Made by a program: the position numbers and the translations under genes. The notes beneath the pieces are model-generated. The model ran no database searches. It saw nothing but the letters and a program-made list of their open reading frames with translations, and was not told the origin of the DNA. Source: Thioclava nitratireducens (GTDB lineage: Bacteria > Pseudomonadota > Alphaproteobacteria > Rhodobacterales > Rhodobacteraceae). From it: a stretch of DNA of 64,000 nucleotides. Location of the stretch: NCBI RefSeq assembly GCF_001940525.2, contig NZ_CP019437.1, positions 3,397,501-3,461,500 of the forward strand. Direction: 5' to 3'. Shown here piece after piece: positions 2,134-59,886 of this stretch. The stretch's first letter is position 1; the number at the start of each line of letters is the position of its first letter.

Positions 2134-2964
2134 TCACGCCCGCTGCGCCCGCCGGGCGAGCCAGCTTTGCCACGCGCCCGGAGACCCCGCGAAAGCGTTC
2201 ATGTCCACCGTTCCGGGCACGCCGGGCACCACGCCCGTGCCGCTATATTGCCAGAAGCTCCAATCGGCGCCGGGGTAGCGCTCCATCGGGTGCGCGGTGA
2301 CCGAGCGCAGCCACATCTCGTAGCCCGAGAAACGCGACAGGTCGTTGTCACGCCAGAAGTCGATCGTCGTGTAGATGACCGGTTTCGTGCCGTAATGACG
2401 CGTCAAAGCAGCGAGGAAGCGGTGCATCTCGGCGCGGGTGACGTGGGCCGCGGGGCGGCGCTGGCAGGTGCGCGAGGTGTGGTTCCACTCGATATCCAGC
2501 ACAGGCGGCAGATCCCCCCGCCGGCGCGGCACGTTGCGGATATACCAATCCGCCTGCTCTTCGGGGGAACGGCAGAAATAATAGAAGTGATACGCCCCCA
2601 CCGGCACGCCCGCTGCCCGCGCGCGGGTCGCGTTGATGTGGAAACCGGGATCGGAGTGATCGCCGCCCTCGGTCGCCTTGAGCCACGCGAAGGACACGCC
2701 AGCCGCGCGCGCCCGTCGCCAGTCGATCTCGCCCTGATAGCGCGCGGCGTCGATCCCGTGGACCGGCAACCGCGCTGGCGCCAGACCTTCCCAGTCATGC
2801 GGATCGGTATCGCCGAAGCGCGCAGGGATGCCGCTCGCCCGGTAGTTCGAGGCGGACAACACGGCCGGACGCATCAGCGTGGCCTGTTTGCCGCCCGGCC
2901 CGCCACCGCAGCCCGCCAAGGCCAAGGCCGCGCCCGAGACGAAGAACCTGCGTGAAATCCCCAT
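2134..2964 (-). CDS. Glycoside hydrolase family 25 (lysozyme-like) lipoprotein
   Basis: The product is 276 residues and resembles GH25 muramidases, which cleave the MurNAc-GlcNAc bond of peptidoglycan. The N-terminus (GISRRFFVSGAALALAGC) combines a twin-arginine-like pair with a lipobox LAGC, so the protein is probably exported and lipid-anchored. The catalytic barrel begins with GIDAARYQGEIDW, and the family DXE acid motif appears as VLDIEWN; SFWQYSGTG near the end is also typical. The start at 2964 was chosen because it gives the signal sequence immediately; an upstream in-frame start would add 27 residues coded by a terminator region. The gene stands alone, so a role in wall remodelling is inferred from family only. 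Confidence 0.87.
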   Translation of the reverse strand: MGISRRFFVSGAALALAGCGGGPGGKQATLMRPAVLSASNYRASGIPARFGDTDPHDWEGLAPARLPVHGIDAARYQGEIDWRRARAAGVSFAWLKATEGGDHSDPGFHINATRARAAGVPVGAYHFYYFCRSPEEQADWYIRNVPRRRGDLPPVLDIEWNHTSRTCQRRPAAHVTRAEMHRFLAALTRHYGTKPVIYTTIDFWRDNDLSRFSGYEMWLRSVTAHPMERYPGADWSFWQYSGTGVVPGVPGTVDMNAFAGSPGAWQSWLARRAQRA

Positions 2965-3003
2965 GCTCACTCCCCCGTGATTTTTTCCCAGCCTCTCATG
3001 CAA

Positions 3004-3035
3004 ACGCCCGCCTGTCATCGCTGACAGGCGGGCGT
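3004..3035 (-). terminator. Strong stem-loop terminator downstream of the EF-hand gene
   Basis: A perfect 14-bp stem (ACGCCCGCCTGTCA at 3004-3017, complement at 3022-3035) with a 4-base loop. T residues follow on both strands (CTTTT on plus, TTTG on minus). Its position between two minus-strand genes suggests it ends the EF-hand transcript before the GH25 gene. Confidence 0.8.
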
Positions 3036-3073
3036 CTTTTGACATCGGCGAGGCTTCGCCTAAAGGGTCCGGG

Positions 3074-3586
3074 TCAGGTCCGTGGGCCGAAATCGGCGCT
3101 AGTCAGCACGCCGTCCCCGTTGCGATCGCGCATCGCGAACCACCGATCGGTACCGCCCACGAACTCCACGCGCGAGATTACCCCGTCACCATTCGCATCG
3201 AAGGCCCGCAGCCCTTCGGCGGCCGGGACATCGTGCCCCGAGCGCATCGCACGGCCCTGACCCTGACGCTTGCCGGGCCCCTGCCCCATACCTTCTGGCA
3301 TCTGATGCCCCGGACCCTTGCCGGCCGCGCGCTCCATTGCCTTATGCTCGTCGATCATGGCGATCTCCGCTGCGGAATAGGCGTCATCCTCGTTCTCGTC
3401 GAACATCGTGAAGATGTCGCCGCGCCGCTCGCGGGCTTCGGACAGCGTGACGCCACCATCGCCATCGAGATCCCATTGCAGGAGGAATTCTTGCCCCGGC
3501 ACCGGGGCAGTCTGCGCGAAGCCCGGAGCGGCGCCGAGCAGGAGGGCCGCGGCAAACGGGGCGGCAAGAGAGGCGAACCGTTTCAT
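3074..3586 (-). CDS. Secreted EF-hand calcium-binding protein
   Basis: A 170-residue protein with a clear signal peptide (MKRFASLAAPFAAALLLGAAPGFAQ) and four EF-hand-type loops. Three are canonical (DLDGDGGVTLSE, DANGDGVISRVE, DRNGDGVLTSAD). The second, DENEDDAYSAAE, lacks the central glycine and is probably degenerate. A linker rich in Gly, Gln, Met and Lys separates the two pairs. It should bind calcium in the periplasm; partners cannot be seen. The start at 3586 was preferred to upstream in-frame starts because it places the signal peptide at the N-terminus. A strong terminator follows. Confidence 0.85.
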   Translation of the reverse strand: MKRFASLAAPFAAALLLGAAPGFAQTAPVPGQEFLLQWDLDGDGGVTLSEARERRGDIFTMFDENEDDAYSAAEIAMIDEHKAMERAAGKGPGHQMPEGMGQGPGKRQGQGRAMRSGHDVPAAEGLRAFDANGDGVISRVEFVGGTDRWFAMRDRNGDGVLTSADFGPRT

Positions 3587-3679
3587 CTGTCTGTCCTTTA
3601 CAATGTGATGTCGAAAATAAAACGAAACGGCCCGCACCTTTCCGGCGCGGGCCTGACAACATGTCGCAGAGGAGAAGCC

Positions 3680-4024
3680 TCAGCCTTTCGCGGCAGCCAG
3701 CTCGTCCCAGCACGCCAGCGCGTGACCGGCATACATCACACCCGGGCCACCGCCCATCTGGATCGCCATGGCAAGCACGTCGCCCAGCTCCTCGCGCGTG
3801 CCGCCCGCTTTCATCAACGCCTCTACATGGAACATGATGCAGGGCTCGCAACGCAGCACGACCGCCATGCCGAGGGCGATGAATTCCTTGGTCTTCACAT
3901 CGAGCGGCCCATTCTCCTTCACCGCTTTCGACAGCACACCAAAGCCGCCGACTGCGTCGGGGATCGTCTTGTTCATCACGCGTAGCTCGTTGCGCATCTC
4001 GTCGATTTTCGCCTTGTAGCTCAT
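3680..4024 (-). CDS. Carboxymuconolactone decarboxylase / AhpD-like protein
   Basis: A 114-residue all-helical CMD-family protein. The signature LRCEPCIMFHVEALMKAG carries the CXXC pair and the downstream His used by AhpD-like members for thiol redox chemistry, so an alkylhydroperoxidase-like activity is more likely than decarboxylation. The rest (IALGMAVVLRC, GGGPGVMYAGHAL) fits the short single-domain group. The ATG at 4024 has a good AAGGAG ribosome site. The gene is monocistronic and its upstream side is occupied by a dispersed repeat. The substrate is unknown. Confidence 0.88.
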   Translation of the reverse strand: MSYKAKIDEMRNELRVMNKTIPDAVGGFGVLSKAVKENGPLDVKTKEFIALGMAVVLRCEPCIMFHVEALMKAGGTREELGDVLAMAIQMGGGPGVMYAGHALACWDELAAAKG

Positions 4025-4130
4025 CGCAGGTCTCCTTCGCATTTCGTCCCTCGCGGCGTGACACGGGGCGCGGGCGAAATCCTTGACCTGCGTCAATACA
4101 TTGGCGTGAGCGGGTAACGGCTGATAGCGA

Positions 4131-4275
4131 GGGGGCTCCGCCCCCGGCGCGGGACACGCGCCTCCCCCGGGATATTTCTCAAGCCCGAAGAGGCGCAAAG
4201 CGTCGTCCTCTTCGCCTTGGCGCAAATATCCCCGGGGGTAAATTCGCGAAGCGAAAAGGGGGGCAGCGCCCCCTT
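4131..4275. repeat. Dispersed palindromic repeat, bipartite copy 1
   Basis: Two half-units in inverted orientation fill the gap between the CMD gene and the flavoprotein gene. Each has a GGGGGC..GCCCCC mini-hairpin (4131-4145 and about 4258-4272) and a core reading CCCCCGGGATATTT or its complement AAATATCCCCGGGG (about 4164-4177 and 4223-4237). The same core recurs at five other places in the window. Confidence 0.75.
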
Positions 4276-4300
4276 CTGCGATCTCCATCGAGAGACAGGC

Positions 4301-6802
4301 TCAGCCGTCGACGCGGATGCGTGCGTTAGTCGGATCGTGCGGGCTATCCTCGGTCACTTCCGCCGGATAATCGGCACCGAGGATGCGCACGCTCAGCTTG
4401 GTGCCCGGCTCGGCCAGATCGGGGCGCACATAGCCCATGCCGATCTGCTTGCCGAAGGCCACCGACCAGCCGCCCGAGGTCAGACGCCCGACCTTCTCGC
4501 CGTCCCGCTTGATGACTTCCTTGCCCCATGGATCGGCATCGTCCGGCCCGTCGATCAAAAGCGTCACGCATTTCGAGCGGATGCCGGTGTCGAGCATCGC
4601 CTGTTTACCGGTAAACTCCTTCTCGAGGTCGATGAAGCGGTCGAGACCGGCTTCCTGCGGGGTCGCGTCGCGGCCCAGCTCGTTGCCGAAAGCGCGGTAG
4701 CTCTTCTCCTGACGCAGCCAGTTCTGGGCGCGCGCGCCGACGAGCTTCATCCCGTGCTTCTCGCCCGCTTCGACCAGCAGATCCCAGAGGTAGCGGCCGA
4801 ATTCGACCGGGTGATGCAGTTCCCACCCCAACTCGCCGGTATAGGCCACGCGCACGGCACGGACCGGACACATGCCCAGCTCGATATTGCGCATCGAAAG
4901 CCACGGGAAGCGCTTGTTCGAAAGAACCGTCTCCGGATAGGCGTCCTTGACGACCTCCTGCAGGATCTTGCGGGCATTGGGGCCTGCGAGCGCGAAGACG
5001 CCCCATTGCGTGGTCACGTCGTGGCAATCGACATAGTCGCCGCCCGCCGCGCGGAAATCCTCGATCGATTTGCGCAGGAAGTCGCCGTCGTAATCGGTCC
5101 AGGCACCGGCCGAGATCAGGTAGTATTCATCCTCGGCCAGCCGCACGATCGTGTATTCGGTGCGGGTCGTGCCCGCTTCGGTCAGGGCGTAGGTCAGGTT
5201 GATCCGACCCACTTTCGGCAACTTGTTGCAGGTGAAGGCATCGAGGAAGGCGGTCGCGCCGGGGCCGCGCACCAAGTGTTTGGTAAAGGCGGAGGCATCG
5301 ATAAGGCCGGCGGTGTCGCGCAGCGCCTCGGCCTCGGCCTTGGCATATTGCCACCATTCGCCGCGCCGGAACGATCGGCTGTCATGGTCGAAGCTCGAAG
5401 GCGCATCCTTGGGCCCGTAGTAGTTCGGACGCTCCCAGCCGTTGGTCTGGCCCATCTGCGCGCCCGCCGCGATCTGGCGATCATAGGCGGGGGCGGTGCG
5501 CAGCGGGCGGCAGGCTTCGCGCTCTTCATCGGGGTGGTGCAGGATGAAGACGTGCTCATAGGCCTCTTCGTTCTTGCGCGCCGCGTATTCGGTGGTCATC
5601 CAGCTGCCGTAGCGCTTGGGGTCGAGCGAGGCCATGTCGATCTCGGCCTCGCCTTCGACCATCATTTGCGCGAGGTAATAGCCGGTGCCGCCCGCGGCGG
5701 TGATACCGAAGGAGAAGCCTTCCGCCAGCCACATGTTGCGCAGGCCCGGCGCCGGGCCGACCAGCGGGTTGCCATCGGGGGTGTAGCAGATCGGGCCGTT
5801 GAAATCGTCCTTCAGGCCGACTTCCTCGGAACTCGGCAAGCGATGGATCATCGACATGTATTCTTCTTCGATACGCTCCAGATCGAGCTGGAACAGATCG
5901 GCGCGGAAACTCTCCGGCACGTCGTAGAGGAAGCGCGCGGGCGCGTTGCGCTCATAGGGGCCCAAGATCCAGCCGCCGCGCTCTTCGCGGACATACCATT
6001 TCGCATCCGCATCTCGCAGCACCGGGTGCTCGGGGTTGCCCTCGGCGCGCCATTTGACGAGCGCCGGATCGGCATCGGTCACGATGAACTGGTGTTCGAC
6101 GGGAATGGCGGGGATCTTGATGCCCAGCAGGCGGGCGGTGCGCTGCGCGTGGTTGCCGGTGCAGGTCACGACATGCTCGGCGCGGACCTCGATCTCTTCG
6201 CCGGAGCCGACAAGGTTGCCGCCCTTCTCGACCATCTTCTCGAGCGTCACGACCCATTCCGAACCGGTCCAGCGATAAGCGTTGACCTGCAGCTTGCGCG
6301 CGATCTCGGCACCGTGCTGGCGCGCGCCCTTGGCCATCGCCTGCGTCACGTCGGCGGGATTGATATAGCCGTCCTGCGGGTGGAACAGCGCACCCACGAG
6401 GTCTTCGGTGTTCAGAAGCGGCCAACGCTCCTTCATCTGCGCAGGCGTGAGGAACTCGTGATAGACGTCCGCGGTCTCGGCCACGGAAGAATAGAGCTTG
6501 TACTCGTCCATCCGTTCCTGCGTCTGCGCCATGCGCAGGTTGCCCACGATCGCAAAACCCGCATTCAGCCCGGTCTCGGCTTCGAGCGTCTTGTAGAAAT
6601 CGACCGAGTATTTGTGGATGTGGGTCGTCGCGTAGCTCATGTTGAACAGCGGCAGCAGACCCGCGGCGTGCCAGGTCGAGCCCGAGGTCAGTTCGTCGCG
6701 CTCGATCAGCAGCGTGTCCCAGCCCGCCTTGGCGAGATGATAGGCGACACCGCACCCGACCGCGCCGCCACCGACGACCAGAGCTTTCACATGGGTTTTC
6801 AT
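4301..6802 (-). CDS. FAD-dependent dimethylglycine/sarcosine dehydrogenase-like protein
   Basis: An 833-residue two-part enzyme. Residues 1 to about 390 are a DAO-type flavoprotein: the dinucleotide-binding motif VVGGGAVGCGVAYHLAKAG and SGSTWHAAGL, whose His is the covalent FAD attachment point in the dimethylglycine and sarcosine dehydrogenase group. The remainder, from about 430, is a GcvT-like aminomethyl/tetrahydrofolate module (GPNARKILQ, YTGELGWELH, RQEKSYRAFGNELG). The family oxidatively demethylates N-methylglycines, passing the one-carbon unit to folate. Start 6802 has a GGAGG site. The gene is single, so dimethylglycine versus sarcosine cannot be settled. It shares a divergent 368-bp region with the PRC-barrel gene. 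Confidence 0.88.
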   Translation of the reverse strand: MKTHVKALVVGGGAVGCGVAYHLAKAGWDTLLIERDELTSGSTWHAAGLLPLFNMSYATTHIHKYSVDFYKTLEAETGLNAGFAIVGNLRMAQTQERMDEYKLYSSVAETADVYHEFLTPAQMKERWPLLNTEDLVGALFHPQDGYINPADVTQAMAKGARQHGAEIARKLQVNAYRWTGSEWVVTLEKMVEKGGNLVGSGEEIEVRAEHVVTCTGNHAQRTARLLGIKIPAIPVEHQFIVTDADPALVKWRAEGNPEHPVLRDADAKWYVREERGGWILGPYERNAPARFLYDVPESFRADLFQLDLERIEEEYMSMIHRLPSSEEVGLKDDFNGPICYTPDGNPLVGPAPGLRNMWLAEGFSFGITAAGGTGYYLAQMMVEGEAEIDMASLDPKRYGSWMTTEYAARKNEEAYEHVFILHHPDEEREACRPLRTAPAYDRQIAAGAQMGQTNGWERPNYYGPKDAPSSFDHDSRSFRRGEWWQYAKAEAEALRDTAGLIDASAFTKHLVRGPGATAFLDAFTCNKLPKVGRINLTYALTEAGTTRTEYTIVRLAEDEYYLISAGAWTDYDGDFLRKSIEDFRAAGGDYVDCHDVTTQWGVFALAGPNARKILQEVVKDAYPETVLSNKRFPWLSMRNIELGMCPVRAVRVAYTGELGWELHHPVEFGRYLWDLLVEAGEKHGMKLVGARAQNWLRQEKSYRAFGNELGRDATPQEAGLDRFIDLEKEFTGKQAMLDTGIRSKCVTLLIDGPDDADPWGKEVIKRDGEKVGRLTSGGWSVAFGKQIGMGYVRPDLAEPGTKLSVRILGADYPAEVTEDSPHDPTNARIRVDG

Positions 6803-52922: not shown

Positions 52923-53905
52923 TGGAACGCGCCCCGATTTTCGAAGAGATCGCGCGCGCCCCCGAGGGCGGCGCTGCCTATTGGCTGACGGCGGAAGATG
53001 GGGTGCGGATACGCTTCGCACATTGGCCAGCACCGCCCCAACCACGCGGCACGGTCTTTCTGGGATGCGGGCGCACCGAATATGTCGAAAAATACGGCCC
53101 TGCGGCCGCGGAATTCGCGGCCCGGGGCTATGCCATGCTCGCCATCGACTGGCGCGGGCAAGGCTTGGCCGACCGGCTTTTGCCCGACGCACCCGAGAAG
53201 GGCCATGTCGGCGGCTTGCAGGATTACCAGTGGGATCTGCATGCGGTGATCGACGCTGCGGACGAGCTCGGTCTGCCGCAACCCTATTACATAGTGGGCC
53301 ATTCGATGGGCGGCGCAATCGCGCTGCGCGCGGTGATGCATGAACACCATCGCTTCAGCGCGGTGGCTTTCTCCGCGCCGATGTGGGGGATCGCCACCTC
53401 GCCGCTGCTGCACCCGTTCCGCATCGTGCTGGCAAACCTTCTGGGCGACGGCTTCCTCGCGAACAACTATCCGCCCGGCATGAACGGCACCACCTATGTC
53501 TACCGCGACAGTTTCGAGGCGAACCGCCTGACCCGCGATCCCGGGATGTGGGCCTGGCTGCTCGAGCAGGCCGCGAAGCGCCCCGAACTGACGTTGGCCG
53601 GCCCGACGATCCACTGGGTCGCCGAGAGCCTGCTGGAATGCGAGGCGCTGGCAGCCCTGCCCTCCCCCGACCTGCCCTGCTATTGCGGCCTGGGCGGGGC
53701 GGAGAAGATCGTTCACACGCCCTCGGTCCATGACCGGATGGGGCGTTGGCCAAAAGGCACGCTGGACGTGATCCCCGACGCCGAGCACGAATTGATGATG
53801 GAAATCCCCGCAACGCGGAAACGCTTCTACGACGGCTGCACCGCGCTGTTCGACGCGGCGGGCGGGCTGGACGCCCGCGACCCGGTCAAAGCTGAATCTG
53901 CGTGA
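52922..53905 (+). CDS. Alpha/beta hydrolase (lysophospholipase L2 / monoglyceride lipase type)
   Basis: A 327-residue hydrolase. GHSMGGAIALRAVM holds the Ser nucleophile, LAIDWRGQGLADRLL the family D-x-RG-G loop, and PDAEHELMMEIP the catalytic His; the Asp is near HDRMGRWPKG-preceding residues. It is likely a lysophospholipase or monoacylglycerol lipase. Start ATG overlaps the SCP2 stop. The last 20 bases overlap the Anbu gene on the other strand. Confidence 0.9.
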   Translation: MERAPIFEEIARAPEGGAAYWLTAEDGVRIRFAHWPAPPQPRGTVFLGCGRTEYVEKYGPAAAEFAARGYAMLAIDWRGQGLADRLLPDAPEKGHVGGLQDYQWDLHAVIDAADELGLPQPYYIVGHSMGGAIALRAVMHEHHRFSAVAFSAPMWGIATSPLLHPFRIVLANLLGDGFLANNYPPGMNGTTYVYRDSFEANRLTRDPGMWAWLLEQAAKRPELTLAGPTIHWVAESLLECEALAALPSPDLPCYCGLGGAEKIVHTPSVHDRMGRWPKGTLDVIPDAEHELMMEIPATRKRFYDGCTALFDAAGGLDARDPVKAESA

Positions 53906-54611
53906 AGCTGTCGCGCAGCGCATTCGACCAGGCTTCCGACATTTCCGCGAAATCATTGTCGCCCGCCTCGATGCGGCGCTGGCTGGAGATCCGGCACTCG
54001 TCCTTCTTGATCACCGCCAGATCGAGCGGCATCCCCACCGAGAGGTTCGAGCGCAGCGTCGAATCCATCGAAAGGAGTACCGCCTTCTGCGCATCGATCA
54101 GGTTTGTGTCCGGACGGACCACGCGATCGAGGATCGGCTTGCCGTATTTATGCTCGCCGATCTGCAGGAAGGGCGTGTCCTCGGTGGCTTCGATGAAGTT
54201 GCCCTCCGGGTAGATCAGGAACATCCGCATCTCACCGCCCGCGCGCTGCCCCGCGACGATCATCGAGGCCGAGGTCGAAACCCGCTCGGCATCCATCCGG
54301 CTGGTGATGTCCTTGCGCACGCCCGCCATCGTGTTGCCGATGATCTCGGCCACTTTCAGCATCGTCGGCGCTTCCATGATCGAGCTGTCGCCCGTCGCGT
54401 CGCTCGCATCCGCTGCCTCGCGCAACCGCGCCAGCGTCGTTTGCGTGACCGAGAGCGAGCCCGCGGTCATGATCGCGATCACACGCTCGCCCGGCTCTTC
54501 GAAGGTGAACATCTTGCGATAGGTCGCGATGTTGTCGAGCCCGCCATTGGTCCGCGTGTCCGACAGCAGCACCATCCCCTCGTTCAGCAAGAGGCCTACG
54601 CAATAGGTCAT
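53886..54611 (-). CDS. Anbu-type proteasome-like peptidase
   Basis: A 241-residue member of the Anbu (BPH) branch of the proteasome superfamily, ancestral-like self-assembling Ntn hydrolases. MTYCVGLLLNEGMVLLSDTRTN begins the protein (within TYCVGLLLNEGMVLLSDTR), so removal of Met exposes Thr as the N-terminal nucleophile. GSLSVTQTTLARLRE and ILDRVVRPDTNL follow. Start 54611 was chosen for that reason and has CAGGGAAC; the open frame extends 216 bases upstream into the transglutaminase gene. It is the last gene of the ATP-grasp / alpha-E / transglutaminase operon. No activity has been shown for most homologues. Confidence 0.95.
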   Translation of the reverse strand: MTYCVGLLLNEGMVLLSDTRTNGGLDNIATYRKMFTFEEPGERVIAIMTAGSLSVTQTTLARLREAADASDATGDSSIMEAPTMLKVAEIIGNTMAGVRKDITSRMDAERVSTSASMIVAGQRAGGEMRMFLIYPEGNFIEATEDTPFLQIGEHKYGKPILDRVVRPDTNLIDAQKAVLLSMDSTLRSNLSVGMPLDLAVIKKDECRISSQRRIEAGDNDFAEMSEAWSNALRDSFTQIQL

Positions 54612-54643
54612 GTTCGTTCCCTGATCCCTGACAAGCGCGCAAT

Positions 54644-55456
54644 CTATTGCTGGACTTGGTCCAAGGCAACTGTGACGTGCAGTCGCTCCTCGCCCGAGCC
54701 TTGGGTGATGCCACGGATCGGCGCGGCTTCGCGCGCATCGAGCCCGGAGCCGAGGCGGATATAGCGCTCGTCCGGGCAGCATTTGTTCGCCGGGTCGAAG
54801 CCGATCCAGCCGATGCCCGCGATCCATATTTCGGCCCAGGCATGGGCGGCCTCGTGCGGGGTGCCATCATCGGCCGCGAACAGGTAGCCCGAAACATAGC
54901 GCGCAGGCAGATCGGCACAGCGGGCTACCGCGACCAGCGCATGGGCATGGTCCTGACAGACCCCCTCGCCCTGCGCCAGCGCCTCGGCGGCTGTGGTGTG
55001 CGAATGGGTGGCGCCCGGCTTGTAGGCGATCGCTTCGGAGATCGCGGCACTGAGGCGATGCGCCCGATCGAGATTTTCCGTGGCCCCTGCAACGGCCTCT
55101 TCGGCCAGCGCCGCCAGACTGTCGTCGATCCATGTCGCGACGGTCTCGCGCAGGTACGCCATCGGATGCACCAGCTCGCGGTGACCGCGCAGCACGCCCG
55201 AGGTATCGAAAGTTTCGACCTGCCCCGTCACGGTGATCGCGACCTCGTCGACCGGTGGGCGGATGGACCAGCCCTCGATACGGTCACCGGCGCCGTCGCG
55301 GAACGACCCGCCCCGGAGACCGCCTTCGACCGAGACGTCCCATTCGATGACACGCTGGCCCTCGAAGCGCGAGGGGAACATGCGCAGCGACTGCACCGCG
55401 GCCCCCATCGGCGCGTCGTAATCATAGGTGGTGACATGGTTGACGGTGAGGATCAT
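54644..55456 (-). CDS. Transglutaminase-like cysteine peptidase
   Basis: A 270-residue transglutaminase-family protein with an N-terminal beta domain (ILTVNHVTTYDYDAPMGAAVQSL). The catalytic triad is readable: Cys in GEGVCQDHAHALVAVAR, His in PHEAAHAWAEIWI, Asp in WIGFDPANK. Members act as peptidases or amide transferases. The ATG overlaps the alpha-E stop as ATGA. Its position between alpha-E and Anbu suggests it processes the same peptide-like product. Confidence 0.94.
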   Translation of the reverse strand: MILTVNHVTTYDYDAPMGAAVQSLRMFPSRFEGQRVIEWDVSVEGGLRGGSFRDGAGDRIEGWSIRPPVDEVAITVTGQVETFDTSGVLRGHRELVHPMAYLRETVATWIDDSLAALAEEAVAGATENLDRAHRLSAAISEAIAYKPGATHSHTTAAEALAQGEGVCQDHAHALVAVARCADLPARYVSGYLFAADDGTPHEAAHAWAEIWIAGIGWIGFDPANKCCPDERYIRLGSGLDAREAAPIRGITQGSGEERLHVTVALDQVQQ

Positions 55457-56415
55457 CGCGCATCTCCCGACAGGTAGGTTTGCTGAACGAGCGCGGTAAG
55501 CTGCCCGATCTCGCCGATGAAACGGGTGAGGAACTCGTGCAGGCCTTCCTCGATAATTTCGGCGACTTGGGTCTGGTTCAGCTCGGTCATCAGCGCCTTG
55601 GCCCGCATCTGCGGCAGGCCGGTGCCCGGCTCGACCTCGTAGAAGCTTTCGAGATTGTCGAGGTGGTGCATCGCCTTGCGCGTCGCCGATATCAGCGAGC
55701 GCGGGCTGGCCGGGTTGAGGATCAGGAAATGCATGATCTTCGACGCCGTCAGCTCGCCGCCATAGGCCCAGTGGAAGGCGCGATAGGATTGCAGCGCGCG
55801 CAGCAGCACCTGCCACTGGTAATTGTCGAGGCCAGAGCCCACCATCTCCACCGAGGGCAGCAGCACGAAATATTTCACGTCGATCAGACGCGCGGTGTTG
55901 TCGGCCCGCTCCAGCGCATAACCGAGGTTCATGAAGAAGAACCCGTCATTGCGCAGCATCGTGCCGTCCATCGCTCCACGCAGCAGCGCCGATTGCCGGG
56001 CCACCCATTCGCACAGCTCTGTAATCTCCCATTCAGAGCGCGGCTGACGCTCGATCTGGCGGATCTCCTGGAACGCGGTGTTGAGCGTATCCCAGACCTG
56101 ACCGGTGATCGCCGTACGCACGATGCGCGCGTTCTCCCGTGCACGCTCGACGCAGGATATCACCGAGGACGGGTTGTCGCGATCAAAGAACAGGTAGCTC
56201 TCGATGTTGCGCTGCACCGGGTCGCCGTATTTCTCGGAGAAGCCATCGGCAGTGCCCGAGGCTTGCAGCAGGCTCTCCCATTCGGAACGGTAGCCATGAC
56301 CGGTCGACGGCGTCAGCGCGATCCGCGCGCCGACCTCCAGAAGCCGTGCCATCGTCTCTGCGCGCTCCATGTAGCGCGCGACCCAGAACAGGTTTTCAGC
56401 GGTTCTACTCAGCAT
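55453..56415 (-). CDS. Alpha-E domain protein (DUF403)
   Basis: A 320-residue all-helical Alpha-E protein. LSRTAENLFWVARYMERAETMARLLEV is the defining start (ENLFWVARYMERAETMAR), and LERADNTARLIDVKYFVLLPS is the second characteristic block. Alpha-E proteins nearly always occur with circularly permuted ATP-grasp and transglutaminase genes and are thought to assist peptide ligation, without proof. Start is 4 bases after the ATP-grasp stop. Confidence 0.95.
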   Translation of the reverse strand: MLSRTAENLFWVARYMERAETMARLLEVGARIALTPSTGHGYRSEWESLLQASGTADGFSEKYGDPVQRNIESYLFFDRDNPSSVISCVERARENARIVRTAITGQVWDTLNTAFQEIRQIERQPRSEWEITELCEWVARQSALLRGAMDGTMLRNDGFFFMNLGYALERADNTARLIDVKYFVLLPSVEMVGSGLDNYQWQVLLRALQSYRAFHWAYGGELTASKIMHFLILNPASPRSLISATRKAMHHLDNLESFYEVEPGTGLPQMRAKALMTELNQTQVAEIIEEGLHEFLTRFIGEIGQLTALVQQTYLSGDAR

Positions 56416-56419
56416 TCGA

Positions 56420-57832
56420 TCACTCCGCCAAAACCCAGGTGTCTTTCACGCCCCCGCCCTGCGACGAGTTCACGACGAGCGACCCTTCAGTCAGCGCGAC
56501 GCGGGTCAGCCCGCCGGGGACAAGCTCGATCTTCTCGCCGACGAGACAATAGGGCCGCAGATCGACATGGCGCGGAGCCACGCCCTCTTCCACGAAAGTC
56601 GGCGTGGTCGACAGCGCGAGCGTCGGCTGGGCGATGTAGTTCTCGGGATTGTCCTCGATCTTGTGGCGGAAATTCTCGATCTGCTCCTTCGTCGATTTCG
56701 GCCCGACGAGCATGCCGTAACCGCCGGAACCGTGAACCTCTTTCACCACCAGCTCGTCGAGATGTTCGAGCACGTATTTGCAATCGTCGGCCTTGGCGCA
56801 TTGCCACGTCGGCACGTTTTCCAGAAGTGGTTCTTCGCCAAGATAGAAGCGCACCATTTCCGGCACGAAGGTGTAGATCGCCTTGTCGTCGGCGACGCCC
56901 GCGCCCGGTGCCGAGCAGATCGTCACACCGCCAGAGCGGTAGACATCCATCAGGCCGGGAATGCCCAGCATCGAATCCGGGCGGAAGCAGAGCGGATCGA
57001 GGAAAGCGTCGTCGATCCGGCGATAGATCACGTCGAGCTTCTTCGGACCTTCGGTCGTGCGCATCCAGCAAAAGCCGCCCTCGCAGAACAGGTCCGGCCC
57101 CTCCACCAGCTCGACGCCCATCAGGTCGGCGAGGAAGGAATGCTCGTAATAGGCCGAGTTGAAATGGCCCGGCGTCAGGATCGCGACCGTCGGCTCGCCC
57201 TCGCATTTCGCCGGTGCGACCGAGGCCAAGGTGCGGCGCAGCGCGTCCGAATATCCATCCACCGGTTCGATCCGGTTCTCGCGGAACAGCTGCGGGAACA
57301 TCCGCATCATGATCTCGCGGTTCTCCAGCATATATGAGACGCCCGAGGGCGTGCGGCAGTTGTCCTCGAGCACGTAGAACTGATCCGGCCCCGTGCGCAC
57401 CAGATCGACGCCGACGATATGGCTGTAGATGCCGCGCGGCGGGATGAAGCCCGAAACCGCGCGCTCGAACGCATCGTTCTGATAGACCAGCCGCGCCGGG
57501 ATACGCCCCGCCCGCACGATCTCGCCACGCCCGTAGACATCGAGCAGGAAGGCGTTCAGCGCCCGGGTGCGCTGCTTGATCCCGCGCTCCAACTTACGCC
57601 ATTCAGCCTGCGTGAAGACGCGTGGAAACATGTCGAAGGGAATCAGGCGGTCCGGGTCGCCGCCCTCGCCGTAGACCGCGAAGGTGATCCCGATCCGGCG
57701 AAACAGCGCCTCCGCCTCGGCCTGTTTCATTGCGCGCAGCTCGGAGGGCATTTCGCGCATCCAGCCATCGAGCCCGCTATAGGGCTGACGCACTTTGCCG
57801 CCGTCGAACATCTCGTTGAAATACTCTGTCAT
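56420..57832 (-). CDS. Circularly permuted ATP-grasp ligase (DUF404/407)
   Basis: A 470-residue protein of the circularly permuted ATP-grasp family. Conserved blocks include QRTRALNAFLLDVYG, YVLEDNCRTPSGVSYMLENR, AILTPGHFNSAYYEHSFLA, LDVIYRRIDDAFLDPL, VVKEVHGSGGYGMLVGP and YIAQPTLALSTTPT. These enzymes are predicted amidoligases joining amino acids. It is the first gene of the four-gene operon; upstream is a 24-nt palindrome at 57850-57873. Confidence 0.95.
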   Translation of the reverse strand: MTEYFNEMFDGGKVRQPYSGLDGWMREMPSELRAMKQAEAEALFRRIGITFAVYGEGGDPDRLIPFDMFPRVFTQAEWRKLERGIKQRTRALNAFLLDVYGRGEIVRAGRIPARLVYQNDAFERAVSGFIPPRGIYSHIVGVDLVRTGPDQFYVLEDNCRTPSGVSYMLENREIMMRMFPQLFRENRIEPVDGYSDALRRTLASVAPAKCEGEPTVAILTPGHFNSAYYEHSFLADLMGVELVEGPDLFCEGGFCWMRTTEGPKKLDVIYRRIDDAFLDPLCFRPDSMLGIPGLMDVYRSGGVTICSAPGAGVADDKAIYTFVPEMVRFYLGEEPLLENVPTWQCAKADDCKYVLEHLDELVVKEVHGSGGYGMLVGPKSTKEQIENFRHKIEDNPENYIAQPTLALSTTPTFVEEGVAPRHVDLRPYCLVGEKIELVPGGLTRVALTEGSLVVNSSQGGGVKDTWVLAE

Positions 57833-57873: not shown

Positions 57874-58065
57874 CCGTGTGCCTCAGGAGTAAAAGGCGAT
57901 GCCCAAAGTTAAGCAACGCGGCGCGCCCGGGGATCGCTCATTTCGCGGCATCTGCCGAAAAATTGTGCAACACCCAGCGAGCCCGCGCCCTTGTCACGAC
58001 GGCGCCCCTGCCCCTATCTGGAAAACAACCAAACATACATGAGCCAGACATACATGAGGATGCCC

Positions 58066-59886
58066 ATGACGCTGACACACCGCCGCCCCGTCTTCGACGC
58101 GAATGCCAATGCAGGGGCGTTCGGCGATCTGCCCGAATGGGATCTCAGCGATCTCTACCCCGCCCCCGACGCGCCGGAACTGAGCAAGGACATGGCGTGG
58201 CTGGAAAAAGCCTGCGCCGAGTTCGCCGCCGATTACGAAGGCAGGCTGGCCGATCTCGACGCGGCGGGCATGGCAGACTGCATCAAGCGCTACGAGGAAA
58301 TCGACGAGAAAGCGGGCCGCGTGATGTCCTATGTCGGCCTGCGCTATTACCAGAACACGACCGACCCGGCACGGGTGAAGCTGCTGTCCGATGCGCAGGA
58401 CAAGATCACCTCCTACACCACGCCGCTCGTCTTCTTCAGCCTTGAGTTCAACCGCATCCCGGACGCGACCTACGAGGCCGTCTTCGCCGATGAGCGCGTC
58501 GCCCGCTACAAGCCGGTGTTTGACCGCATGCGCGCGATGAAACCCTACCAGCTCTCCGACGAGCTGGAGAAATTCCTCCACGACCAATCGGTCGTCGGCG
58601 CTGCCGCGTGGAACCGCCTCTTCGACGAGACCACCGCGGCGCTGGAATTCGAGGTGCAGGGCGAGAAACTGTCGCTCGAGGCCACCACGACGCTCCTCTC
58701 CGACCACAATCGCGAAAAACGCGAAGCGGCGGCGAAGGAGCTGGCGCACGTGTTCGGCGAGAACATCCGCACCTTCTCGCGCATCCACAACACGCTGGCC
58801 AAGGAAAAGGAAATCGAGGACCGCTGGCGCAAGATGCCGACGCCGCAGACCGGTCGCCACCTGTCGAACGACGTGGAGCCGGAAGTGGTGCAGGCGCTGC
58901 GCGACGCCGTGGTCGCGGCCTACCCGCGTCTGTCGCATCGCTACTACAAGCTGAAGGCGAAATGGCTCGGCCTCGAGAAGCTGCAGATCTGGGACCGCAA
59001 CGCGCCGCTGCCGACCGAAGCCCCGCGCGACATCATGTGGGACGAGGCGAAGGACACCGTGCTCGACGCCTATTCCGGCTTCGATCCGCGCATGGCCGAT
59101 ATCGCGCAGCCCTTCTTCGAGAAAGGCTGGATCGATGCGGGCGTGAAGCCGGGCAAGGCACCGGGCGCCTTCGCGCATCCGACCGTGACGACCGTCCACC
59201 CTTACGTTATGCTCAACTACCTCGGCAAACCGCGCGACGTGATGACGCTGGCGCATGAGTTGGGCCACGGCGTTCACCAGGTGCTGGCCGCGAAACAGGG
59301 CGAGATGCTGGCCAACACGCCGCTGACGCTGGCCGAGACGGCCTCCGTCTTCGGCGAGATGCTGACCTTCCGCAAACTCCTCGCTGCGGCGAAGACCCGC
59401 GAAGAGCGCAAGACGCTTCTGGCCGGCAAGGTCGAGGACATGATCAACACGGTCGTCCGCCAGATCGCCTTCTATGATTTCGAGTGCAAGCTGCATGCGG
59501 CGCGCGCCGAAGGGGAGTTGACGCCTGAGGACATCAACGCGCTATGGATGTCTGTGCAGGGCGAAAGCCTCGGCCCGGCATTCGAATTCATGGACGGCTA
59601 CGAGACCTTCTGGTCCTACATCCCGCACTTCGTCCACTCGCCCTTCTACGTCTACGCCTATGCGTTCGGCGACGGGCTGGTGAACGCGCTCTACGCCGCC
59701 TACGAGGCCGCGCCCGAGGGCTTCCAGGACAAGTATTTCGCGATGCTGGAAGCGGGCGGCTCGATGCACCACAAAGAACTGCTCGCGCCCTTCGGCCTCG
59801 ACGCCTCCGACCCGGCCTTCTGGGACAAGGGCCTGTCGATGATCGAAAGCTTCATCGACGAGCTGGAGGCGATGGAGAAGGCCTGA
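58066..59886 (+). CDS. pepF: Oligoendopeptidase F (M3 family)
   Basis: A 606-residue cytoplasmic M3B peptidase. The HEXXH motif is MTLAHELGHGVHQVLA, with the third ligand in LTLAETASVFGEMLTF; HSPFYVYAYAFGDGLVNALY is typical of PepF. It hydrolyses peptides of roughly 7-17 residues. ATG 58066 is preferred because GAGG lies 8 bases upstream; in-frame ATGs at 58039, 58054 and 58060 are alternatives. It diverges from the Anbu operon. A repeat and a terminator follow. Confidence 0.95.
   Translation: MTLTHRRPVFDANANAGAFGDLPEWDLSDLYPAPDAPELSKDMAWLEKACAEFAADYEGRLADLDAAGMADCIKRYEEIDEKAGRVMSYVGLRYYQNTTDPARVKLLSDAQDKITSYTTPLVFFSLEFNRIPDATYEAVFADERVARYKPVFDRMRAMKPYQLSDELEKFLHDQSVVGAAAWNRLFDETTAALEFEVQGEKLSLEATTTLLSDHNREKREAAAKELAHVFGENIRTFSRIHNTLAKEKEIEDRWRKMPTPQTGRHLSNDVEPEVVQALRDAVVAAYPRLSHRYYKLKAKWLGLEKLQIWDRNAPLPTEAPRDIMWDEAKDTVLDAYSGFDPRMADIAQPFFEKGWIDAGVKPGKAPGAFAHPTVTTVHPYVMLNYLGKPRDVMTLAHELGHGVHQVLAAKQGEMLANTPLTLAETASVFGEMLTFRKLLAAAKTREERKTLLAGKVEDMINTVVRQIAFYDFECKLHAARAEGELTPEDINALWMSVQGESLGPAFEFMDGYETFWSYIPHFVHSPFYVYAYAFGDGLVNALYAAYEAAPEGFQDKYFAMLEAGGSMHHKELLAPFGLDASDPAFWDKGLSMIESFIDELEAMEKA

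Follow-up and report, generated by a model that had tools for sequence, protein, structure and literature searches.

An intact Anbu operon in Thioclava nitratireducens: probable nitrogen control and a candidate amide chemistry

The Anbu operon and other described systems

Anbu (ancestral beta subunit) is a proteasome relative that was described in 2008, and its physiological role is given as still unconfirmed in accounts of the protein (PMC5666114, PMC6376114). The operon that encodes it, the gene order of this operon, and a proposal that it serves peptide synthesis are also already published, and are credited in the same accounts to Valas & Bourne 2008 and Iyer et al. 2009. We analyzed a copy of this operon in a 64,000-nucleotide stretch of the Thioclava nitratireducens genome (contig NZ_CP019437.1, positions 3,397,501 to 3,461,500; the whole stretch is referred to as the window). 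Four minus-strand genes encode an ATP-grasp ligase, an alpha-E protein, a transglutaminase-like enzyme, and Anbu, and are preceded by a palindrome that is a candidate NtrC-type operator. The operon is very likely under nitrogen control, and we regard the upstream operator as the strongest clue to its function. An earlier note on this DNA, which does not mention the operator, had put the unit forward as the best candidate in the window for an undescribed system, in which a ligase, a cross-linker, and a peptidase would act together. Undescribed it is not: the Anbu operon entered the literature in 2008-2009, solved structures exist both for Anbu and for a relative of the ATP-grasp, and the scheme itself is the already published proposal. 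The window unit is an intact copy of a known bacterial gene set; what is new is its regulatory address and its contrast with a paralogous system, and these make the function testable.

The operons reported from Pseudomonas, Yersinia, and other bacteria agree with this one in their four families, in gene order, and in the Anbu Thr, Asp, and Lys (PMC5666114, PMC6376114). The difference lies in the promoter region: the window operon is preceded by a TGC-N11-GCA operator, and no sigma54 is detectable in its genome, whereas a sigma54-type promoter is found in many other Pseudomonadota. The Pup-proteasome system of Actinobacteria likewise combines an amide ligase with a proteasome-type peptidase and is used under nitrogen starvation (PMC8223512), but the window unit lacks a tag gene, no unfoldase was seen in its scanned neighbors, and its ligase is an ATP-grasp enzyme rather than PafA. 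The Rlo operon of P. aeruginosa is also reported to carry an ATP-grasp protein, a transglutaminase-like protein, and a peptidase in one operon; there, however, the ATP-grasp shares 24% identity with RimK, the transglutaminase sits in the membrane and is inactive, and the peptidase is retropepsin-like and secreted (PMC12239564).

The four-gene unit and its catalytic residues

The genes for the circularly permuted ATP-grasp ligase (56420..57832, 470 amino acids; PF14403, E-value 6e-164), the alpha-E protein (55453..56415, 320 amino acids; PF04168, 1e-90), the transglutaminase-like cysteine enzyme (54644..55456, 270 amino acids; PF08379 and PF01841), and Anbu, a proteasome-like N-terminal nucleophile (Ntn) hydrolase (53886..54611, 241 amino acids; PF00227, 3e-6), follow one another on the minus strand of the window, in the conserved order. 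From the ATP-grasp gene to the Anbu gene, the junctions are a 4-base gap, an ATGA overlap, and a 32-base gap; judged by this spacing alone, the four genes would form one transcript. The coordinates and junctions of the earlier note were thus reproduced to the base, and the gene identities it had assigned agree with Pfam and PDB matches.

The linkage survey that the note had suggested was made with the best 80 of 551 relatives in the Rhodobacteraceae, which, given this selection, are close relatives; the nearest named ones are Thioclava, with an ATP-grasp 98% identical to that of the window, whose host genome is 4.24 Mb in 3 contigs. The ATP-grasp, alpha-E, and transglutaminase genes had identical order and strand in 80 of the 80 loci, and Anbu completed the unit in 78; in the other two, the contigs end at most ca. 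520 bases past the transglutaminase gene. An overlap of 1-10 bases between the alpha-E and transglutaminase genes was found in all 78 called loci. The linkage of the four genes is far above chance, and the association does recur, as had been claimed.

The sole convincing sequence relative of the window ATP-grasp in the PDB was 3n6x (E-value 3e-191), titled putative glutathionylspermidine synthase. The presumed active-site residues E156, N158, K364, GGYG 370-373, and D424 are all intact in the window and invariant in 80/80 Rhodobacteraceae. E156 and N158 are the presumed metal-binding pair, and K364 and GGYG likewise have presumed metal or ATP roles, as in ATP-grasp enzymes generally. By family homology and by these intact residues, the window protein qualifies as a circularly permuted ATP-grasp. 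E156, N158, K364, G370, G371, Y372, G373, and D424 were also invariant in 59/59 standalone ATP-grasps (58 from the loci of 100 sampled Pseudomonadota genomes, plus the window), and the residues were intact in 7/7 plasmid loci, including those of Deinococcus, Paenibacillus, and Tsukamurella, drawn from the 60 rows listed among 109 records.

The transglutaminase matched PDB 3isr (E-value 5e-14), and the Cys-His-Asp triad that had been read from its sequence, C167/H205/D221, is present in the window and in 80/80 Rhodobacteraceae homologues. Across three classes of these enzymes, the Cys was found in 30/31, 34/34, and 35/35 sequences, and the His and Asp in all. The window Anbu matched five distinct PDB Anbu sequences (5loy, 5nyj, 5nyf, 5lox, and 5nyw; E-values 2e-73 to 4e-56) in alignments that span residues 1 or 2 to 237-240 of 241, that is, over its full length. 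The residue named as nucleophile in the earlier note, Thr2, becomes Thr1 after Met removal and, together with Asp17 and Lys32(33), is present in the window and in 78/78 callable homologues. The Anbu N-terminus is Met-Thr-Tyr-Cys in 16/16 aligned sequences, so that a Tyr and a Cys beside the Thr nucleophile are invariant. A dodecameric open-ring assembly is reported for another Anbu (PMC5666114 / PMC6376114).

The candidate upstream operator and probable nitrogen control

The candidate NtrC-type operator (57953..57969, no strand assigned) was located by motif scan as a 17-base TGC-N11-GCA palindrome whose core is AT-rich and which lies 121-137 bases ahead of the start of the ATP-grasp gene. Its spacing is that of the enteric NtrC site. 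The motif was learned by expectation-maximization, seeded with aligned operon upstreams, from a training set of 71 non-redundant operon upstreams from which P-II genes were excluded; it exceeded 8 bits in 69 of these, at a median position of -132. The operator is the top-scoring site of the 64-kb window (21.5 bits versus 11.5 for the next). At a threshold of at least 11 bits, the motif was found before 78/81 operons of the Rhodobacteraceae (with exact dinucleotide shuffles, a mean of 1.8 and a maximum of 5) and in 49/51 upstreams of genes for the nitrogen sensor P-II (glnB/glnK-type) from 26 Rhodobacteraceae genomes (60 exact dinucleotide shuffles, mean 1.6, maximum 4; 51 of 58 P-II matches were used, the 7 weakest being omitted), and is thus common to the operon and to known nitrogen-control genes. 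It occurred in 10/1421 control upstreams, which belong to mechanically called open reading frames, some of them not real genes; the shuffle controls are independent of these. When the 99% control threshold was applied, 22/24 P-II upstreams were marked by the real motif, while 100 column-permuted motifs marked a mean of 0.8 and a maximum of 7; this test used those 24 of the 51 P-II loci that were placed by pattern.

Outside the Rhodobacteraceae, the motif reached 11 bits in 24/56 operon upstreams (shuffles, mean 2.0, maximum 5). Sigma54-type sites scoring at least 13 were found in 21/58 standalone ATP-grasp upstreams of the 100 sampled Pseudomonadota genomes (the window's excluded), compared with a mean of 0.9 and a maximum of 3 in 100 Markov shuffles and with 31/823 mechanical open reading frames. 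Either a motif of at least 13 bits or a sigma54 site of at least 13 preceded 35/56 operons outside the Rhodobacteraceae versus 65/820 controls; by operon type, such a site was found in 15/20 operons with Anbu and in 16/22 with ATP-grasp and alpha-E only. PF04552, the DNA-binding domain of sigma54, had no match in the window's genome, and a sigma54 site was present in 0/80 Rhodobacteraceae operon upstreams. Since the palindrome is found upstream of both the operon and P-II genes, and sigma54 sites are enriched elsewhere, we conclude that the operon is most likely a member of the NtrC regulon for nitrogen starvation. Caulobacter NtrC is reported to bind the glnBA and glnK promoters by chromatin immunoprecipitation sequencing, and Rhodobacterales NtrC is reported to lack the sigma54-contact loop and to act via sigma70 (PMC10274813); based on these reports, NtrC is the likely binder of the operator.

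Published expression data from other bacteria point in the same direction. In P. putida, nitrate compared with ammonium gave log2 changes of 4.44 for Anbu and 3.99 for the ATP-grasp (PMC8050072), PP_2686-2688 are reported as raised 11- to 37-fold (PMC7801951), and PP2685 is given as up 11.1 (PMC3325844). A related ATP-grasp/alpha-E/transglutaminase cluster of B. cenocepacia, I35_5080-83, for which an ntrC-mutant transcriptome has been published, is reported as NtrC- and sigma54-dependent (PMC5491218), and a marine metagenome study ties these domains to urea metabolism (PMC3597751).

A stricter scan of the genome, with one mismatch allowed, returned eight palindromic sites versus one for a reversed control, one of the eight being the operon's. 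Two (L208 and L209) are intergenic and precede genes for an ATP-binding cassette (ABC) binding protein and an ABC permease; a third (L207) is inside a permease gene, with a gene for an ABC binding protein ca. 250 bases further on.

Several results weigh against nitrogen control of these genes. The remaining four sites of the genome scan (L206, L210, L211, and L212) have no clear nitrogen role, their contexts being phage portal, sub-threshold beta-lactamase-fold, and mechanosensitive channel genes nearby or the inside of an xdhC gene. The motif was below 11 bits in 32/56 diverse operons outside the Rhodobacteraceae, a motif or sigma54 site preceded just 4/12 operons with a transglutaminase and no adjacent Anbu, and sites at the seven plasmid loci, two Rhodobacterales included, were weak (at most 11.8 bits) or lacking. 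In one P. putida data set, Anbu (PP_2685) was up merely 1.1-, 4.8-, and 1.5-fold, and PP_2686-2688 were still induced in what we presume to be the rpoN-mutant column (PMC7801951). A term search in the main text of the Caulobacter NtrC study turned up hvyA alone as a transglutaminase-type target (PMC10274813), although Caulobacter does have alpha-E. Finally, co-occurrence with urease was not significant once genome size was allowed for (p 0.12). In one alphaproteobacterial genome, a match to the urease alpha subunit lies ca. 1.7 kb past Anbu on the same strand (G047:C5:165642-170245).

The intergenic region that holds the operator in the window also precedes a divergent gene for an M3-family oligopeptidase F (58066..59886, plus strand; PF01432 and PF08439). 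This gene adjoins the operon in 69/80 relatives, some of the remaining loci being cut by contig ends. Given this adjacency and the common intergenic region, a cytosolic oligopeptidase may join the same response; the M3 gene is possibly co-controlled with the operon and was not counted as part of its core. Five flanking genes were tracked in the 80 relatives, encoding the M3 peptidase, an alpha/beta hydrolase, an SCP2 protein, a TPR protein, and a helicase-like protein. No transporter or carrier was found among these five, the remaining flanks being unannotated.

The fused paralogue and the candidate amide chemistry

Alpha-E was found in 58/100 Pseudomonadota genomes. All 58 had a standalone copy, and 31 additionally had a fused ATP-grasp/alpha-E protein, which was the sole form in 0/100 genomes. 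The fused proteins formed a single cluster in a FastTree tree (31/31, support 1.0) and had lost the residues that are invariant in standalone enzymes: E156, N158, Y372, and D424 were present in 0/31 each, K364 and G371 in 3/31, and G370 and G373 in 2/31. DUF2126 was found in 30/31 fused loci and a short transglutaminase in 31/31. At the level of genomes, DUF2126 and the fused protein occurred together in 30, DUF2126 alone in 5, and the fused protein alone in 1, so the pairing is strong, though not absolute. DUF2126 is a putative amidoligase and probably provides the ligase step of this second system; in our reading, the ligase has been replaced there, and each system would retain one candidate active amidoligase. 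The loss of residues in every fused ATP-grasp, next to a near-constant DUF2126, provides an internal test of which partner ligates.

The genome of the window has such a second system at ca. 2.50 Mb (L005:7439-16119 on G000:C1), with genes for a transglutaminase-DUF2126 protein, a fused ATP-grasp/alpha-E protein, and a short transglutaminase. Its ATP-grasp, alpha-E, and transglutaminase domains are homologous to those of the window operon, but the ATP-grasp catalytic residues are lost, DUF2126 is present, and Anbu is absent. A motif site of 16.5 bits precedes its first gene by ca. 120 bases; the motif reached 11 bits before 10/34 first genes of second-type loci, a count made without a control set. 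A peptide-type ABC transporter is encoded after these genes on the same strand, and its binding protein was found in 0/69 other loci. At another locus (L143), three motif copies lie 275-340 bases before the aligned start of the ATP-grasp, in an enhancer-like arrangement between divergent ATP-grasp (1025-2710) and DUF2126 (2868-6194) frames.

Anbu was present in 40/100 Pseudomonadota genomes, 39 of which also had alpha-E; 19 of the 58 alpha-E genomes lacked it. We conclude that Anbu is evolutionarily dispensable and that the core consists of the ATP-grasp and alpha-E, often with the transglutaminase. In 8/31 fused loci (L115, L120, L123, L126, L127, L132, L134, and L135), Anbu adjoins the fused and DUF2126 genes rather than the standalone pair, which indicates that it can move between the two systems.

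As judged from its sequence, alpha-E is an internal duplication (repeats at ca. 1-150 and 151-320), whose halves are homologous by hhalign (probability 99.2, E-value 5.5e-20, 142 columns). Each repeat contains an ER...R signature (E17 R18 R24 and E169 R170 R176). Residues E17, R18, R24, R100, E169, R170, P238, and R239 were conserved in 56-59/59 standalone and 30-31/31 fused sequences. R176, the second-repeat counterpart of R24, was found in 59/59 standalone and 8/31 fused sequences, and W46, R93, R97, N112, and W201 were largely specific to standalone proteins (0 to 3/31 fused). The retention of ER motifs beside a dead ATP-grasp suggests that alpha-E is more than an ATP-grasp accessory. An AlphaFold2 model of alpha-E is all-helical (mean predicted local distance difference test score 86.7, predicted template modeling score 0.87), and sequence searches of the PDB returned no match. 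Alpha-E is now a defined target, as a duplicated helical protein for which no solved structure was found by sequence.

That the complete type-1 Anbu operon of the window is turned on when nitrogen is limiting and carries out a conjugate-and-cleave amide chemistry is, taken as a whole, an evenly balanced proposition; for the chemistry considered by itself, we would put the chances slightly short of even. According to this proposal, NtrC would bind the operator and act on a housekeeping promoter, which is proposed because the genome lacks detectable sigma54. The ATP-grasp and alpha-E, an obligate helical partner that may hold substrate or product, would activate a carboxylate with ATP and join it to an amine, yielding a small, cytosolic amide conjugate. 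The transglutaminase, through its Cys, and Anbu, through its Thr, would transfer or hydrolyze such conjugates. Together, ligase and amidases would enable starved cells to salvage nitrogen by conjugation and cleavage; the substrate, the direction, and the sequence of the steps are given here as we infer them. In the second system, the ATP-grasp would be catalytically dead and a DUF2126 amidoligase would supply the ligase step, alpha-E keeping its ER motifs. The ligase and both hydrolase-type enzymes are from families that make or break amides. Since, in addition, the tracked flanks hold no transporter or carrier and genes of nitrogen assimilation are under the same kind of control, a cytosolic conjugate-and-cleave route is the simplest account.

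Published biochemistry does not favor this chemistry. No named substrate, product, or mutant phenotype was found in the published accounts of the Anbu operon. Purified Anbu is reported to have cleaved 0/3 standard proteasome peptides, Anbu pull-downs to have given no specific partner or complex, and the Y. bercovieri ATP-grasp to release phosphate from ATP, with neither Glu nor Gln stimulating the release (PMC5666114 / PMC6376114). Of the amino-acid-dependent ATPase activity for which the earlier note had proposed a test, the last result weakens only the glutamate/glutamine version.

The proposal of Iyer et al., by which one particular small, peptide-like metabolite is built and matured by the operon's enzymes, accounts for a ligase, a transglutaminase, and an Ntn-hydrolase within one unit and for the second putative amidoligase of the paralogous set. 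Nitrogen control would then reflect nothing more than the nitrogen content of the product or its role as a starvation signal. However, a nitrogen-rich product would be costly during starvation, and the five flanking genes tracked in 80 relatives include no transporter or carrier; we regard this pathway as rather unlikely.

Alternatively, the ATP-grasp with alpha-E (or DUF2126) may modify proteins that Anbu degrades or de-modifies, recycling amino acids in nitrogen starvation in the manner of the Pup-proteasome. Protein tagging has already been proposed in print for this operon (PMC5666114 / PMC6376114), Anbu is a proteasome homologue, the operon carries a nitrogen operator, and loss of pup/proteasome genes impairs growth of M. 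smegmatis under nitrogen limitation (review PMC8223512). Yet the junctions (4 bases, an overlap, 32 bases) leave no space for a tag gene inside the unit, and no AAA unfoldase was found among the eight unit and flank proteins scanned, the genome elsewhere not having been searched for tag or unfoldase. Anbu is reported to lack peptidase activity in vitro (PMC5666114 / PMC6376114), and with 19/58 alpha-E genomes lacking Anbu, degradation is not part of the core; its dispensability weighs against obligate protein degradation. We consider tagging and degradation unlikely. Still less probable is a reversible glutathionylspermidine-like buffer for storage or detoxification, in which a thiol peptide or amino acid is joined to a polyamine and released by the Cys and Thr amidases: it is suggested by the title of 3n6x, the only convincing PDB relative of the ligase, but this title is an annotation, and a profile search reached no further glutathionylspermidine synthase.

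Placement of the operon in the nitrogen-starvation response, for Rhodobacteraceae and, as judged from promoter type, for much of the phylum, names a condition for the substrate search; the published assays, with standard proteasome peptides and with Glu and Gln, are reported without such a condition (PMC5666114 / PMC6376114). More tentatively, and with some doubt on our part, the Anbu operon and the sister system with the fused protein and DUF2126 may be two ligase variants of one unrecognized bacterial nitrogen-starvation pathway. If so, amides would be made by the ATP-grasp with alpha-E, or by DUF2126 beside a dead ATP-grasp, and dismantled by the transglutaminase and Anbu, with alpha-E as the common core scaffold. 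Proteasome-type enzymes would, in this pathway, salvage nitrogen from small amides rather than degrade proteins.

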